Source: a virus
IMG/VR virus record: IMGVR_UViG_3300030333_006863
Coordinates: 1-48,490 of that record
Strand: one strand, 5' to 3'
Length of the DNA stretch: 48,490 nt
Shown here: in pieces, positions 16,301 to 41,557 of the stretch
Layout: each line of letters opens with the position of its first letter
How positions within the stretch are numbered: position 1 is the stretch's first letter
Notes under the pieces: model-generated
What the model saw: the letters and a program-made list of their open reading frames with translations, nothing else
Databases searched by the model: none
What the model was told of the DNA's origin: nothing
Made by a program: the position numbers and the translations under genes

Positions 16301-19300
16301 GCCTATTATTGGAGTTGCTTTAAAACAGCTAATGAAAAATGGGCTTATACAAACTACTACTGATAGTAAAAATAGAGGTGTTAGGCTAGTTGCGCCTAAT
16401 AAAATAACAGTAGAGCAAGTAGAACGAATTATACCAAATTTAACTCAGAAAGAAAAGCAAGCATATGTAGATGCATATACCAGAGTTATGGACTCGATTG
16501 GGAAAAAATTAGTAGCTAGGCGAGATGATTTTAATATAACAATGCTAACTGCAGAGCAATTATCATCTATTACAACAGCTGATAAGATGTTAGATAAAAA
16601 TCGATATATAACTGATTCTGAAGCAAAAGAAAATATAATACTAGAAGCTATAGAAAGAACCAATGTTCGCAGGAATGTTTTACAGGACCAGCTAAAGGAT
16701 CCTACAATTGAGGATAGTGCAGCTTCTCAAATACGCGATCTATTGAATTTTGAAACTTCAAAGTACCAACAATTAAACGAAATACATCAAGCTTGGAGAG
16801 CAGCATTCGCTGGTGGTCAGGAAATGACTAGAGCTGCAGCATATTTAGAATTTGCAGGTACTACTAGAAATAAAGATGGTAAAAATATATTTGATCTTAT
16901 TAGGGATATTGAAAAATCAGAGGATCCCTTTCATAAATTCACAGAAGATATAAAGCAGCTTCAAAATATTATTGCTGAAAAGGTCAATGAGAGACCGAGT
17001 GGTAAGAGCTGGGACGAGAGAAGGAATGATTTTTTAATAGCTGAAGAACAAAGAGAAATTGAAGGTGTTTTACCAGATAATAGAAAACATACTAATCCCG
17101 ATCTATTTTTTGAAAAATACGGAATAGATAAGAATGACATCTTTTCTGTTGGAGAGAAATATTATAGATCAACATTTGAAACAAACGCGGAAGCTCTGTA
17201 TGAGTTATATAATGAAGTTGTTGTTACTCAAAATCAAAGTAGGGAAGTTTTTATTGATAGAGTTATGGAACTAGCTGGAACTAATAGAGCCGAAGCTTCA
17301 GCTGAGTTAAGAAATGATGTTATGGTTTTAAGCAATCTCATGGATAGAAGGTTTAAGATCAAAAGACTTACAGTTAATCAAACTAGTGGAACTGGAGTAT
17401 TTGAGAATACAGAAATATCCAAAGGCTTTTTAACGGATATATGGACAGAAATATTTAGCGGCATTAACGCTCCAATGCTTATTCTAGATAGCGGATATAC
17501 TAAGAATGGTAAAATACAAAATATCTTTACAAGCCCTAATGGATTAAATGAATTAACTCAAATATTATATGGGAATGAATTTTTTGCTACATTAAATCAG
17601 GGCGAAAATAGATATATAAGTTCATTAAAAAGAGGAACGGCAAAACCAGTTGAACTAGGTCAAGAAGTATGGCATACAGTTGATATAGCTGAAACCTATT
17701 TAAAAGGAGCAATGTATCCTGTTGTTGTCGATGAGAATATAACAGTTCTTATTCCAGAAGCTCATATATCCCATATTAAAAAACCATTTATGAGATGGTT
17801 TGAAAAAATTGAGAAAGATCCGTATACTAAAAAAGCCATAGATAAGTTGCCCCAAGCTAAGGAGCTTATAAATGAGCTAAGGAATTATTATGAGATATTC
17901 AAGAATGGAAACGGGACCCCCGATTCATTTGTTAAGGATGGACAAAGATGGCAAGAAAGTGTACATGATGCAATTTTTACAATTTTTAATTCTATGTATG
18001 GGGAGCGTATTGATGGAGACTGGCTTCAAGATGCTTATACTAATGGCCCTGGTCAAAGAAAACATTTTAAATATAAAAGGTTAGCTCAAAACCAAGGATA
18101 TTCAAGAAATAGTATTGCTCGACGGGAAACTGCTAAGGCTATTTTTGGTGAAGGTACTGGTAGTAGTAAGTATGAAAAAATATTAATTGAAAAATATGCT
18201 GATAGAGAAATAAATAATATTTTCGTCGTGAACGATGGTGTTAATAGTGAAATGGGTTCTGCTGCTAACCAATTAATAACAGATAATAGATCAGTTGCTG
18301 AGCATAGATTGGAAAGAATGTTGGAGAGGGGTGACATTACCAAGGAAGATTATAAAGAGAATTTAAGATTGCTAGAAAATGCATCTTCTATTAACGCTGA
18401 AGCTGTAAATGGAATGACCCCTGTGCGTCGAGAGTATTTAGATTTCCTTTTATTGCAAAATGGTGATGCTGATCTTATAGGAAAATCAGCTGGGCAAAAA
18501 CCAGTGGGATTAACTTCGTATACTGATTCAAAGGGAGTAGTGCATGTTCTTTATAATAAGACTCACTACTTTTATGACTCTAGGCTAGATAAGTTTTTTG
18601 AATTGAATCCAGATATAGATATGATTGCATTTACCAGTGGAGCAAAGAAAGCTAAGATCATTGATCCTAATCAGTCCTTGGAGAATCAATTAAAGCCATA
18701 CGAAGCTATACCTGTCATAGGCGATCTAATTAAAGACAAAGATGGTGTTGAAAGACAGGTTACTATATATGATATGCTTAATTCATTGAATACTAATGAT
18801 TCTAAAAGATCTATAATGCCAGTTAGGGCAGATCAGAGTTTATCAGGTACTGTTTATGGTGAGCATCACAATGCTAAGATATTAAAACAATTTAGTAATT
18901 GGACATCACCAGAGGTTCAAAGAGATCTTTATAAATATGCTCGTCAAGATATGATAGAACAATTTTCTGAAATAAATATGAAGTTTTATAATCCAGAAAA
19001 TATGGCATTGGCATCAGCAGAAGCTAGATCCTTTATGAGAACAGAGGGAAACAAGGATGGAACTATTGCTGTTCAAACTGAAAATGCATCTACCGAGGCT
19101 ATTTGGATAGAGAATAGTGGGATTCCTTTTTCGATATCTGGAAATCTATATGATGCTATAATCAAGAAAAGATATGTTGATCAAGCTGGAATTTTTGATG
19201 GATTTACAGATGCAGGTGGTTCAGCAATATTGCGTGGCAATATGGCAATGGATCTAGATATTCCTGTTTATAAGGGTAATGTTCAGATAAAGTTAGGCGA

Positions 19301-26589: not shown

Positions 26590-26694
26590 TTATTCCTTTG
26601 GGTATTTAAGATCACAGGCACTGCATACCCATATGCCGTCATCTTTTTTTATGTCTTCTTTTTCTTGTTCACATAGATCACATATTTTTTTCAT
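26590..26694 (-). CDS. 34-residue CxxC...CxxC zinc protein
   Basis: A very short gene (MKKICDLCEQEKEDIKKDDG and following) with AAGGA before the ATG. Cys5-x2-Cys8 and Cys24-x2-Cys27 form one treble-clef or zinc-knuckle site. Single zinc-finger micro-proteins of this kind are common in phages and often bind nucleic acid or host proteins. It lies immediately upstream of the pyrophosphatase-like gene and immediately downstream of the structured RNA array. Confidence 0.65.
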   Translation of the reverse strand: MKKICDLCEQEKEDIKKDDGIWVCSACDLKYPKE

Positions 26695-26710
26695 ATTAAT
26701 TCCTTAAAAT

Positions 26711-26765
26711 TTGGGCTAGCTCGCTTACGGAGTTGAATATTGGTCGACCTAACTAACTAGCCCAA
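26711..26765 (-). ncRNA. Structured RNA element A
   Basis: TTGGGCTAG (26711-26719) pairs perfectly with CTAGCCCAA (26757-26765), a 9-bp closing stem around 37 bases that include the palindrome GGTCGACC. It is separated from element B by four A/T bases. Strand inferred from flanking minus-strand genes. Confidence 0.5.
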
Positions 26766-26769
26766 TTAA

Positions 26770-26848
26770 AGGTGGAACATGGCTCAGCTCGCTGTTCTTA
26801 TGGGTAGCTCCCAGCCTGACCATTTACGCTCTGGGTACACGCCCACCT
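26770..26848 (-). ncRNA. Structured RNA element B
   Basis: AGGTGG (26770-26775) pairs with CCACCT (26843-26848), enclosing 67 bases with an internal GGCT/AGCC plus AGCT/AGCT stem. Size 79 bases, tRNA-like in length, but no T-arm or anticodon arm could be built. Shares GCGAGCT with element A (minus strand). Confidence 0.45.
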
Positions 26849-26856
26849 ATATTAAT

Positions 26857-26934
26857 TTCAAGCACTACCGTTGCCCCACGCGGCAATTGTAACGGCTTTT
26901 ACGGGATCCCCTGTGGTTCTAACTAGTGCTTGAA
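26857..26934 (-). ncRNA. Structured RNA element C
   Basis: An 11-bp perfect closing stem, TTCAAGCACTA (26857-26867) with TAGTGCTTGAA (26924-26934). Inside are TTGCC/GGCAA (26871-26875 and 26882-26886) or, alternatively, CCGTT/AACGG, and a GGGATCCC palindrome. Markedly more GC-rich than the surrounding genes. Flanked by A/T-only linkers. Confidence 0.55.
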
Positions 26935-26950
26935 TGTTTTTTCCTCTCAC

Positions 26951-27018
26951 AATAGGTGCCATGGTACTTATCTAAAATACCTATTGATCAATTAAATGAG
27001 CTCTTTTTCAGGCAAGAG
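26951..27018 (-). ncRNA. Structured RNA elements D and E
   Basis: D: AATAGGT (26951-26957) with ACCTATT (26979-26985), 7 bp and a 21-base loop. E: CTCTT (27001-27005) with AAGAG (27014-27018). Both lie between elements C and F in the same gene-free stretch. These are smaller and could be processing hairpins rather than independent RNAs. Confidence 0.35.
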
Positions 27019-27020
27019 GA

Positions 27021-27176
27021 AATAATTATACCTTGCGTCTGACATCAAGACCGTATAGAAGCCAGATGAATAGCTGTTTGGTTTGCATTTACTTTGCGAA
27101 AACCCGAAGGACGGGAGGAGTTCCAAGATGAAAAGAACTGAAGCGTATTCATCAGTCTATAGACAAGGTAATTATT
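27021..27176 (-). ncRNA. Structured RNA element F, about 156 bases, branched
   Basis: A long closing stem (AATAATT, bulge, ACCTTG, bulge, TCT at 27021-27040 against AGACAAGGTAATTATT at 27161-27176) contains a second helix GATGAAT/ATTCATC (27065-27071 and 27147-27153) with an adjoining TATAGA/TCTATA, and inner hairpins CCCG/CGGG (27103-27106 and 27112-27115) and AGTTC/GAACT. This order of nested and branched helices is too regular for chance in AT-rich DNA. A small zinc gene ends within its last bases (27172). No known riboswitch or ribozyme core was matched. Confidence 0.55.
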
Positions 27177-27402
27177 GAGTACAATTTGGACATATTTTTC
27201 TTTCTTTACCATAGGTAGGAAAGTTTTCATACCATTCAAAATTTTTCAAATGGAAACCTTTCACTACTTTTGAATTCTTATGTTCCCAGCATAATTTACA
27301 AGATGTACAATATTTTATCAACCTATCTGCCTTTCTACCTGGGAAGTTAGTAGATCCATATGGTAAACGTTTTCTTTTATGATTTTGCTTCATACCAATC
27401 AT
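27172..27402 (-). CDS. Small zinc-binding protein (CxxCxxC ... CxxC)
   Basis: 76 residues from the ATG at 27402, which follows AAGGA closely and overlaps the preceding membrane gene; an ATG at 27393 is the alternative. The basic N-terminus (MKQNHKRKRLPYG) is followed by YCTSCKLCW and a C-terminal CPNC, giving a CxxC-CxxC zinc site. Similar small phage proteins are fragments or relatives of HNH/endonuclease VII-like zinc domains, but no His-Asn-His catalytic core is visible. Likely nucleic-acid-binding. Confidence 0.55.
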   Translation of the reverse strand: MIGMKQNHKRKRLPYGSTNFPGRKADRLIKYCTSCKLCWEHKNSKVVKGFHLKNFEWYENFPTYGKERKICPNCTQ

Positions 27403-27532
27403 ATATCCTTGAAGCAAATTCACTAATGCTATCTCTAAATACATATAGAGCTAAAGCTGCAAAGAACATTCCTAGTCCAGCTGCTAGCATCCAAAAACAA
27501 ATTAATATAAAAGAATTTAGAAATTCAATCAT
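27377..27532 (-). CDS. Small single-pass membrane protein
   Basis: 51 residues from the ATG at 27532 (GGAG 6 bases upstream); the longer in-frame start at 27601 has no ribosome site. Residues 5-32 are hydrophobic (FLNSFILICFWMLAAGLGMFFAALALYVF), one transmembrane helix, followed by a charged amphipathic C-terminus. Overlaps the zinc gene downstream. Could be a holin-like, spanin-like or membrane-anchor peptide; unknown. Confidence 0.55.
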   Translation of the reverse strand: MIEFLNSFILICFWMLAAGLGMFFAALALYVFRDSISEFASRIYDWYEAKS

Positions 27533-32534: not shown

Positions 32535-32565
32535 ACTATAGGGGCCATTTCTGACCCCTTATAGT
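32535..32565 (-). promoter_or_regulatory. 3' hairpin after the E1-like gene
   Basis: ACTATAGGGG (32535-32544) pairs with CCCC-T-TATAGT (32555-32565, one bulged T), a 10-bp stem with a 10-base loop starting at the E1 stop codon. No T-run follows on the minus strand, so it is probably an mRNA-end or stability element upstream of the true terminator at 32269. Confidence 0.5.
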
Positions 32566-33455
32566 TATGTAGTAAGGCGACTTTTATCCATAGTAGATAG
32601 TAAGGTCATACTTGGAAAGTTAAAGGTAATTTCAGGATTGACTAAAGAAGTTTCATCAACTATTTTTCGTACTTGATTATTAATAAATGCAGCTGCCATT
32701 GAAGCACAATAGCCTGTACTTCTTGCATTGCATGGTTCATTATCTCCATCTTCATCAGGATACCATGTTTCCATATATTCTGATTTAAATTCTTCTACTC
32801 TATCTCTAAGATCATCTCTGTATCTTTGACCTTCTTCTCTATGCATATCATGAGTCCAATCGTGTTCTTCATATCCTTCGATACCTTCACCTCTATCTCT
32901 TAATTCTGGATTAAAATGAAATATGTTAGATTGAAATGTTTCACTACCCATTCTAGCATCAATTACATATATATTTCTATAATTTCCAGACCTATAATGA
33001 TCATCTTCTCCATTACCAGGTATTCCATACTCCCAATGCTTAAATATTTTATCACAATATTTTTCCATTACTTTAGATCTAGCATTCATGCTATCAACTC
33101 CAATAATTAAAATTTGAGTATCTACTTGACTAGGAATACTTAACCAACTACGACTCCAAGTCATATCAGGCTCATATCTATTAGGTACTTTTTTTATTCT
33201 AATTGCTGGATTAACTTCTGTCATTTGCCTAGCTAACATATTAACCTTACTTTTACCAATATGACTAGTATTGAAATGTTGAACTCCAATATTAACTGTA
33301 GCAACAACATCATTATCATATATAGAAAAAGTTTTACCACCTGCTCGAGCTAGAGCCATGGCAGTATAACTACCAATGGCTCCACACCCTACAATAAGAA
33401 AATGAACTTTATCAATGTTGTAAATGTTTTGAAATCTCGCTGTAAGCTGACTCAT
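32565..33455 (-). CDS. E1-like ubiquitin-activating (ThiF/MoeB) enzyme
   Basis: 296 residues. GCGAIGS at 23-29 is the dinucleotide-binding GxGxxG, followed by IYDNDVV (D47, D49), GVDSMNAR at 119-126 (the Asp and Arg of the adenylation site) and a C-terminal segment with Cys242 and Cys250 (PCNARSTGYCASMAAAF), one of which could form the Ubl thioester. E1-like enzymes adenylate the C-terminal Gly of a Ubl and pass it on. The gene overlaps the JAB gene by 44 bases and has GGAG before its ATG. With the Ubl, E2-like and JAB genes upstream, it completes a conjugation cassette. Acting alone it might have been a thiamine or molybdopterin sulphur-transfer enzyme, but no such pathway genes are present. 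Confidence 0.88.
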   Translation of the reverse strand: MSQLTARFQNIYNIDKVHFLIVGCGAIGSYTAMALARAGGKTFSIYDNDVVATVNIGVQHFNTSHIGKSKVNMLARQMTEVNPAIRIKKVPNRYEPDMTWSRSWLSIPSQVDTQILIIGVDSMNARSKVMEKYCDKIFKHWEYGIPGNGEDDHYRSGNYRNIYVIDARMGSETFQSNIFHFNPELRDRGEGIEGYEEHDWTHDMHREEGQRYRDDLRDRVEEFKSEYMETWYPDEDGDNEPCNARSTGYCASMAAAFINNQVRKIVDETSLVNPEITFNFPSMTLLSTMDKSRLTT

Positions 33456-34539
33456 AATTTACTCCTTCAATCTCTTCTCTTACTAAAAGATCATCGAATC
33501 CACTTAATGTATCCATTTGACTTGGAATATGTAGCTTCATATTATACTGCTGCTGTAATCCTCTAATAAGATCTGTTATGTATTTTAAATGTTCTTCTTC
33601 TGTTTTTGATCCATTTGAAAATGTATGCCAACCTTCAATGGCTTGTTCAATATTTCTAATGATCAATTTTTGTTGTTTTTTCTTTTCATCATCATTATTA
33701 ACTGGTTTTCCTAGAAGATTTCCTACATTATTTAAAGATTTTTCTCTTAAGGGTTTTTTCCCTTTTTGAGATAAACCTCTTTCAACATTTTGTATTTCTT
33801 CTTCTATGATATATTCAGGTATATCTCTATCATCTTTTTTATCATTTAATACTTCTTTAGCGTTAATATTTTCCATTAAAGCTTCTTCAGAAGTATATCC
33901 ACCTAATGGAGCACCATCTCCACTAAGATAACTTGAATAACCTAGTTCATCATCAAATAAACAACCTTGCTGCATTCCTTTGTATTCTTCCCATTTAGTA
34001 AATTTCTTGACAGATACTTTTTCATCAATTTCTTTACTAACATCAGGAGTTTCAATACCATAGTCAATAACTATATTAACATCAAAAGAAACTATTTTAA
34101 TATGATTACCATTGATCTTTACAGGAACTGAATAATCAGCTTTATATTCACCATCATTGTTTACAACAATTGCTAATGATGGACCTTTTTCAGCATACTC
34201 TTTTATTGTAGCTGAATCTGTACCTGACCAAAAAGCTTTCATTGTATGATGTGAATGCCACCAGCAAAACATTAATTTATTTGGTAATAATTCACGATAC
34301 TTTTTTGCAGTTTTATCTACATATTCAACAATAGCTTCTTTATCCAGTGTCGTATTACTACCACTGCATTCTTGAGTCAAGATAGAAGGTGTTCCTACTG
34401 TCATTTTTCCATCATCATCAATAAATACAGGACAATACCCACTTACTTCAGTTTTGTATTTTTCATAAGCAGATCTTGCGTAGACAATCATTTTATTAAA
34501 ATCTTGTCCACTCATATAAACTTTAAGTTTATCTTCCAT
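33412..34539 (-). CDS. JAB/MPN+ metalloprotease (deubiquitinase-like)
   Basis: 375 residues from the ATG at 34539, with GGGAGA upstream and an 11-base overlap with the E2-like gene. The JAMM motif is complete: E31 (EVSG), then H95-S-H97, seven residues, S105-x-x-D108. This is the zinc-dependent isopeptidase site that cleaves ubiquitin-like proteins. Residues 110-375 form a long extension rich in charged residues, with no other catalytic motif, perhaps for binding substrate or other members of the cassette. Expected roles are trimming the Ubl precursor and removing Ubl from targets. Confidence 0.9.
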   Translation of the reverse strand: MEDKLKVYMSGQDFNKMIVYARSAYEKYKTEVSGYCPVFIDDDGKMTVGTPSILTQECSGSNTTLDKEAIVEYVDKTAKKYRELLPNKLMFCWWHSHHTMKAFWSGTDSATIKEYAEKGPSLAIVVNNDGEYKADYSVPVKINGNHIKIVSFDVNIVIDYGIETPDVSKEIDEKVSVKKFTKWEEYKGMQQGCLFDDELGYSSYLSGDGAPLGGYTSEEALMENINAKEVLNDKKDDRDIPEYIIEEEIQNVERGLSQKGKKPLREKSLNNVGNLLGKPVNNDDEKKKQQKLIIRNIEQAIEGWHTFSNGSKTEEEHLKYITDLIRGLQQQYNMKLHIPSQMDTLSGFDDLLVREEIEGVNYESAYSEISKHLQH

Positions 34540-41179: not shown

Positions 41180-41460
41180 TTTTAAAACCTTTCTTCTTTA
41201 CCGTAACCAGAGTACGGTGGTTACGATACTAACTAACAGTTTTTGTTTTATCCTTGTGCTTAGCTATTATATGCAATTAACTTGCATCGGTAGCTTTAAT
41301 AAAAGATCATCCAATTAGTACCCGTTGCGATACGTTCTGCTAAGTGGATCAGACGTTGGGTTTAAGATCTTTCACCATAGTAAGGTCAAGTTGTCCCCGA
41401 TACTACCACAAATTGCTTAGATATAAACATTGGATATGGGAGTGAATAACTGGTCCAGGT
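41180..41460 (+). ncRNA. Long structured leader
   Basis: About 280 bases without a gene, with nested pairings: CGTAACC/GGTTACG (41202-41208 and 41219-41225, competing with ACCGT/ACGGT), AGCTA...ATGCAA/TTGCAT...TAGCT (41262-41295), a 7-bp AAAGATC/GATCTTT (41302-41308 and 41366-41372) around CGTTCTG/CAGACG, and TAGTA/TACTA (41378-41405). Probably a leader RNA of the late transcript or a processed RNA. It does not form a tRNA. Confidence 0.45.
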
Positions 41461-41557
41461 GAGAAATTCTGAGTTAAACATCCAAAACCTTCAGGGGCTA
41501 ATAGCATCCTTTTTGAATTTTCTTGCAGATAGAACATCATATTCATACCTTATATAC

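Follow-up and report, generated by a model that had tools for sequence, protein, structure and literature searches.

Five stem-closed elements, referred to as E1 to E5, stand in a row in the early operon of an uncultured phage, and we consider that they probably constitute a tandem array of separately folding, trans-acting small RNA genes that would be released from the early transcript in the way tRNAs are. In the analyzed DNA (the window), a 48.5-kb virus record, the portal, capsid, and terminase genes are on the plus strand and the early block is on the minus strand. The array spans positions 26711-27174. As both flanking genes are on the minus strand, the array is expected to encode its RNAs on that strand too. 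Coordinates of the elements and of related features are summarized in Table 1.

Table 1. Array elements, flanking genes, and other stem-closed elements in the window
Feature	Position	Strand	Description
E1	26711-26765	-	55 nt, closing stem of 9-11 bp; member of a conserved RNA family
E1 conserved core	26720-26736	-	TCAACTCCGTAAGCGAG; search pattern, near-invariant also in the search with the other half
E1 palindromic loop	26742-26749	-	GGTCGACC; candidate self-pairing (kissing) site
E2	26770-26848	-	79 nt, 6-bp closing stem AGGTGG/CCACCT; from sequence
E3	26857-26934	-	78 nt, perfect 11-bp closing stem; second RNA family
E3 palindrome	26903-26910	-	GGGATCCC; GTGTCAC in relatives, imperfect there
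E4	26940-27022	-	83 nt, closing stem of 8-11 bp around hairpin 26950-26986
E5	about 27025-27174	-	bulged long stem of ~150 nt
Upstream gene	27172-27444	-	90-aa cysteine-rich protein; stop codon abuts E5
Downstream gene	26590-26694	-	34-aa zinc-ribbon-like ORF; start codon 16 nt past E1
Stem-closed element, same early block	40586-40637	-	14-16 bp stem
Stem-closed element, same early block	40457-40497	-	
tRNA-Met	39864-39938	-	adjoined by a stem-closed 44-nt element at 39810-39853

The initial annotation, made from the letters alone, had described a gene-free stretch with at least five structured RNAs, and most of its description holds. The array score is 14.5, compared with 3.5 ± 2.7 for dinucleotide shuffles; none of 200 shuffles reached it, and two control regions from this genome score 0. 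Perfect stems of at least 9 bp number two in the array region versus 0.16 in shuffles (5/500). The first three elements have the sizes originally given (55, 79, and 78 bases), and the long bulged stem named as the fifth corresponds to E5. The 35-base fourth element, on the other hand, proved to be the inner hairpin of the 83-nt E4. The linkers, which had been called A/T-only, are indeed short, but only nearly A/T-only, with a single G between E3 and E4. The elevated GC content is borne out, being 0.35-0.57 in the elements versus 0.347 in the genome and visible as a bump in the composition profile. The plain folding energy of the whole region is not significant on either strand (z -1.3 and -1.8), and the argument is hence carried by the arrangement of the elements together with comparative data. 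Aside from the elements in Table 1, the minus strand of the early block has at least one additional stem-closed element within 36487-36640.

We then compared the array with known RNA classes. Rfam 15, including the models of GOLLD, ROOL, 6S, tmRNA, and self-cleaving ribozymes, detected only the tRNA in the window at the gathering threshold, and a relaxed threshold (E up to 10) gave nothing relevant in 26600-27250. Ten E1-bearing loci yielded tRNAs only. Neither ARAGORN nor Rfam called a tRNA on E1-E5, the tRNA-Met being the sole tRNA of the window. The elements had been thought to resemble neither tRNA, tmRNA, 6S, nor hammerhead RNA, and these searches agree. No earlier description of these RNAs was found in the open-licence literature. 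GOLLD and ROOL are ornate RNAs of phages and prophages, often located near tRNA islands; each is a single cage-forming RNA of about 660-800+ nt, assembles via covariation-supported kissing loops and other contacts, and has unknown function (PMC12286853). The array shares with them that phage-encoded structured noncoding RNAs lie near tRNA genes and that intermolecular kissing loops occur, which are predicted in the present case. It differs in having many distinct elements of ~40-190 nt in tandem, with no Rfam match to either family. A Y RNA serving a phage Ro protein was also considered as a candidate. A DUF2828/DUF7788 gene (phrog_850, annotated as RNA-binding protein), whose product we take to be Ro-like, is located at 36705-38102 on the minus strand, 9 kb from the array. 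The phrog_850 protein was absent from 35 related records, including E1-bearing ones, in a search whose control gave a signal in 6 of 14 genomes, and the candidate was rejected.

The phage is remote from cultured phages, as terminase identity to isolates does not exceed about 26%. The isolates gave one weak capsid match, to Caulobacter phage Kuura, and BLASTN against isolated phages and plasmids returned nothing meaningful. Scans of viral contigs with the helicase or the Ro-like protein as single queries found no relatives, while alignments of capsid and terminase recovered a large uncultured group. The kept loci of this group have capsids 49-97% and terminases 64-84% identical to those of the window. 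The relatives are metagenomic contigs throughout, drawn from many samples, and their element boundaries, assigned by a simple stem parser, are approximate. The closest two (G001 and G004) were left out of the array comparison since their contigs end just before the array.

E1 belongs to a family of about 20 viral contigs, the terminases of which are 30-79% identical to that of the window. A search of 50 relatives matched E1 in two of them (G023 and G029). An exact scan of IMG/VR with the 17-mer core TCAACTCCGTAAGCGAG hit 25 contigs, 21 of which share E1 in full or as far as it is visible; in the remaining four, the match is embedded in unrelated sequence. Because the core was selected by an exact pattern, part of its invariance arises by construction; this was partly checked by searching with the remaining half of E1, which retrieved known members again and two core variants. 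A 20-mer of E1 has no match in 84,980 prokaryote genomes. In the 16-row alignment A4, both sides of the closing stem change in eight of the nine pairs. Paired cells amount to 80.6%, compared with 50.2% in shuffled and at most 47.7% in slid alignments, and the covariation score is 0.759 versus 0.211 and at most 0.265, respectively. The pair at the stem base, otherwise an invariant U-G, becomes U-A in L314 and L316. The opposite strand would read A-C at this position, and the exchange hence supports the minus strand as the RNA strand. Two candidate inner helices of E1, one pairing AGUU with AACU and the other a GUAA-loop hairpin in CUCCGUAAGCGAG, lie in invariant columns, and folding energies favor neither. 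The E1 loop differs in length by 1-4 nt between phages; as such differences are not divisible by three, E1 is not coding.

The E1 loop is a perfect palindrome in every family member, with seven different sequences, namely GGTCGACC, GCATATGC, GCACGTGC, GTGTACAC, GTCTAGAC, AGGTACCT, and AGGCCT. Any single palindrome is unremarkable, having a chance of 4-20% per sequence; on the aligned sequences, the striking feature is that palindromy is conserved while the sequence changes. The computed self-duplex energies range from -9 to -14 kcal/mol. A hairpin with a four-base loop needs no palindromic loop, and AGGCCT is unable to form a hairpin, so intermolecular pairing is the simplest reading. These data suggest that E1 loops form loop-loop dimers: the hallmark of a kissing loop, self-complementarity kept despite sequence change, is found in E1 as a prediction from sequence. 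The retroviral dimerization site is a palindromic kissing loop. Like that site, the E1 loop is variable yet always palindromic and is flanked by purines; the two are unrelated in sequence, and the E1 dimer is a predicted one. Palindromes and inverted repeats are also symmetrical in DNA, and the elements are exchanged between phages, as could be expected if the palindromes and stems were DNA sites, such as binding sites of dimeric proteins, recombination sites, or mobile-element ends. We regard this as extremely unlikely, as seven palindromes would require equally many proteins, the U-G/U-A exchange and the fixed strand relative to genes favor RNA, the element interiors are asymmetric, and tRNA genes are among the elements.

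The gene 3′ of E1 is sense-oriented in all of the 22 loci where one is seen, and E1 often terminates 15-35 nt ahead of the start codon. Both features would suit a cis-regulatory leader or riboswitch acting on the following gene. The identity of this gene nevertheless varies; judged by translations, it can be a zinc-ribbon ORF, a ThiF-like, ParB-like, or exonuclease-like gene, or others. Moreover, another element intervenes between E1 and the gene in G023 and L267, and E1 is also found within a different scaffold (F3, see below). Assignment to the cis-regulatory class was rejected on the inconsistent downstream genes, and we judge a leader function to be very unlikely. The ThiF-like gene directly flanks E1 in L260, L261, L271, L272, and L276, and in the window, genes of a ThiF-like and a weakly JAB-like protein lie adjacent to each other at 32565-34590 on the minus strand.

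E3 likewise represents an RNA family, the second in the array. When two of its interior pieces, joined by a free spacer, served as the search pattern, 12 matches were obtained, three of which (L321, L325, and L326) are true to E3: their interior, size, and closing arrangement are alike, whereas the closing stem is different. In alignment A8, all 84 cells are paired, with seven compensatory pairs and none broken; the family has four sequences, three of them close to one another, so that effectively two lineages are compared. One compensatory pair is in an inner helix (CCGTT/AACGG to CTGTT/AACAG), and another is in the self-complementary stretch, where GGGATCCC becomes the imperfect GTGTCAC. A proposed pseudoknot, CCAC/GUGG, is invariant across the family. 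The terminases of L325 and L326 are 29% identical to that of the window, and L321 has the helicase (27%) and the resolvase (48%); by these protein comparisons, the E3-bearing phages are of the same broad group as the phage studied here.

Compensatory changes in helices, as expected of structured noncoding RNAs, are thus found in both E1 and E3, and the covariance analysis across related contigs that the initial annotation had proposed came out positive for both. By their alignments, E1 and E3 are previously undescribed RNA families, absent from Rfam. Together with similar arrays in related phages, this upholds the original view of an array of structured RNAs of an unknown class. E2, E4, and E5 had no counterparts in 2.9 Mb of sequence from relatives or in 18 additional records, and the closing stems are the supported part of these three elements.

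We then inspected the intergenic DNA of the group. Stems of at least 10 bp closing 40-200 nt number 62 versus 9 in shuffles, compared with 17 versus 15 for the same class in coding DNA, and 35 of 194 intergenic stretches beat all 20 of their shuffles, where about 9 are expected. L267 has five consecutive elements separated by linkers of 3-9 nt. The arrays of related phages mostly consist of elements different from those of the window. In L286, for example, the elements at the corresponding place show no similarity in sequence to those of the window, while the neighboring resolvase gene is 92% identical. In L299, L240, and L226, a tRNA-Met is itself an array element. The array hence resembles phage tRNA gene arrays in that small structured RNAs follow one another in early operons, separated by short A/T linkers, and in that tRNA-Met is an element in three relatives; it differs in that the other elements are not tRNAs according to ARAGORN and Rfam.

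Parts of the elements are exchangeable as well. The F3 scaffold, GTTACGGCTAAAACCACCATTCGTTAA ... AAGCGTGGTC, carries a tip that is exchanged between phages. This tip is E1 in L261, L267, and L274, other sequences occupy it in L225, L146, L239, and L303, and L325 is nearly tipless. The F2 family, found in the early region of L224, L227, L231, L237, L239, and L257, has a constant interior (CCTGTAAGTC...AAAGGAATAyGTGA), a variable inner hairpin, and a compensated closing stem, in which both sides change in five of nine pairs among the six sequences. On this sequence comparison, RNA modules are swapped between phages. A 60-nt element, GGGGGA..TATCGAGTCCTCCGAGACCT..TATTCCCCC, is located upstream of E1 in L299 (within 16899-17899) and L282, and is near-identical in G062 and G066, phages with terminase identities to the window of 77% and 32%, respectively. 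Judged by its recurrence, it is another shared RNA family.

Phage T7 has RNase III hairpins between its early genes. The main rival to trans-acting RNAs is accordingly a function in cis, with the elements serving the early mRNA as processing or stability signals, similar to the T7 sites, or as tandem exonuclease-blocking folds. In both systems, stem structures are situated between early podovirus genes; the elements described here sit between co-oriented genes of the early operon, and their closing stems are kept as pairs rather than as sequence, as for a generic double-stranded substrate. Unlike the T7 sites, however, the elements have interiors that are far more conserved than their stems, the E1 core of ~20 nt being kept down to terminases of 30% identity. 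Four to five of them are arranged back to back with no gene interposed, a tRNA-Met is among them, the genes that follow E1 are various, and exchangeable tips would be superfluous for a processing site. Taking both sides into account, we consider cis-acting signals unlikely, though deserving of serious attention.

Another alternative concerns type III toxin-antitoxin systems, in which the antitoxin consists of a single short sequence, about 35-45 nt in length, repeated in tandem. The elements might be decoy antitoxins that neutralize host nucleases of this type (ToxIN-like) and are cut apart at the A-rich linkers. ToxI arrays consist of compact, partly pseudoknotted RNAs in tandem, and the array with its A/T linkers has a ToxI-like architecture, sharing with ToxI and CptI the tandem arrangement of compact RNAs (PMC8860590, PMC5086642). 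A repeated unit is nevertheless lacking here: every array element differs, most are 55-150 nt long, and no repeat family links them. Membership in the ToxI-like class was rejected on this ground, and we find a decoy antitoxin function highly improbable.

We favor trans-acting small RNAs, for which the following course can be proposed. The array RNAs would be co-transcribed with the early genes from the minus strand. Host nucleases would cut the A/U-rich linkers, as they do in tRNA and sRNA arrays, and thereby release stem-clamped RNAs resistant to exonucleases, which would work in trans. E1, and perhaps E3, may dimerize through self-pairing of the palindromic loop, and the dimers may expose a conserved surface for a partner of host or phage origin. 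A role in counter-defense or host takeover, as decoy or inhibitor RNAs, is a tentative guess by analogy, prompted by how quickly elements are replaced while their early locus stays fixed, a behavior reminiscent of anti-defense gene clusters. Taken together, an uncultured podovirus-like lineage could conceivably possess a combinatorial RNA toolkit, although we hold this full picture with low confidence: unrelated small RNA families in tandem, with constant interiors, exchanged clamp stems, and swappable tips, several of them self-pairing by palindromic loops, would be delivered early in tRNA-like fashion against host defense or physiology. The known noncoding RNAs of phages are mostly single large RNAs (GOLLD and ROOL), tRNAs, and isolated sRNAs. 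If true, the proposal would add to these a novel way of organizing RNA genes in phages, namely tandem arrays of diverse modular small RNAs that turn over at one constant early position, comparable to clusters of small anti-defense protein genes. As E1 and E3 are defined in sequence and have testable structures, the function of phage structured RNAs becomes directly testable using molecules of 55-80 nt.

Apart from the array, the window has a conserved noncoding stretch of ~175-190 nt upstream of the terminase genes (41290-41488, plus strand), which has no Rfam match at the gathering score. Its DNA is 70-78% identical in at least 17 relatives. The fold has 32 pairs, 15 of which change on both sides, and 96.8% of cells are paired; U-G pairs in it indicate that the plus strand is the RNA strand. 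By this comparative evidence, the stretch encodes a structured RNA that is new and might be a leader or have to do with packaging.
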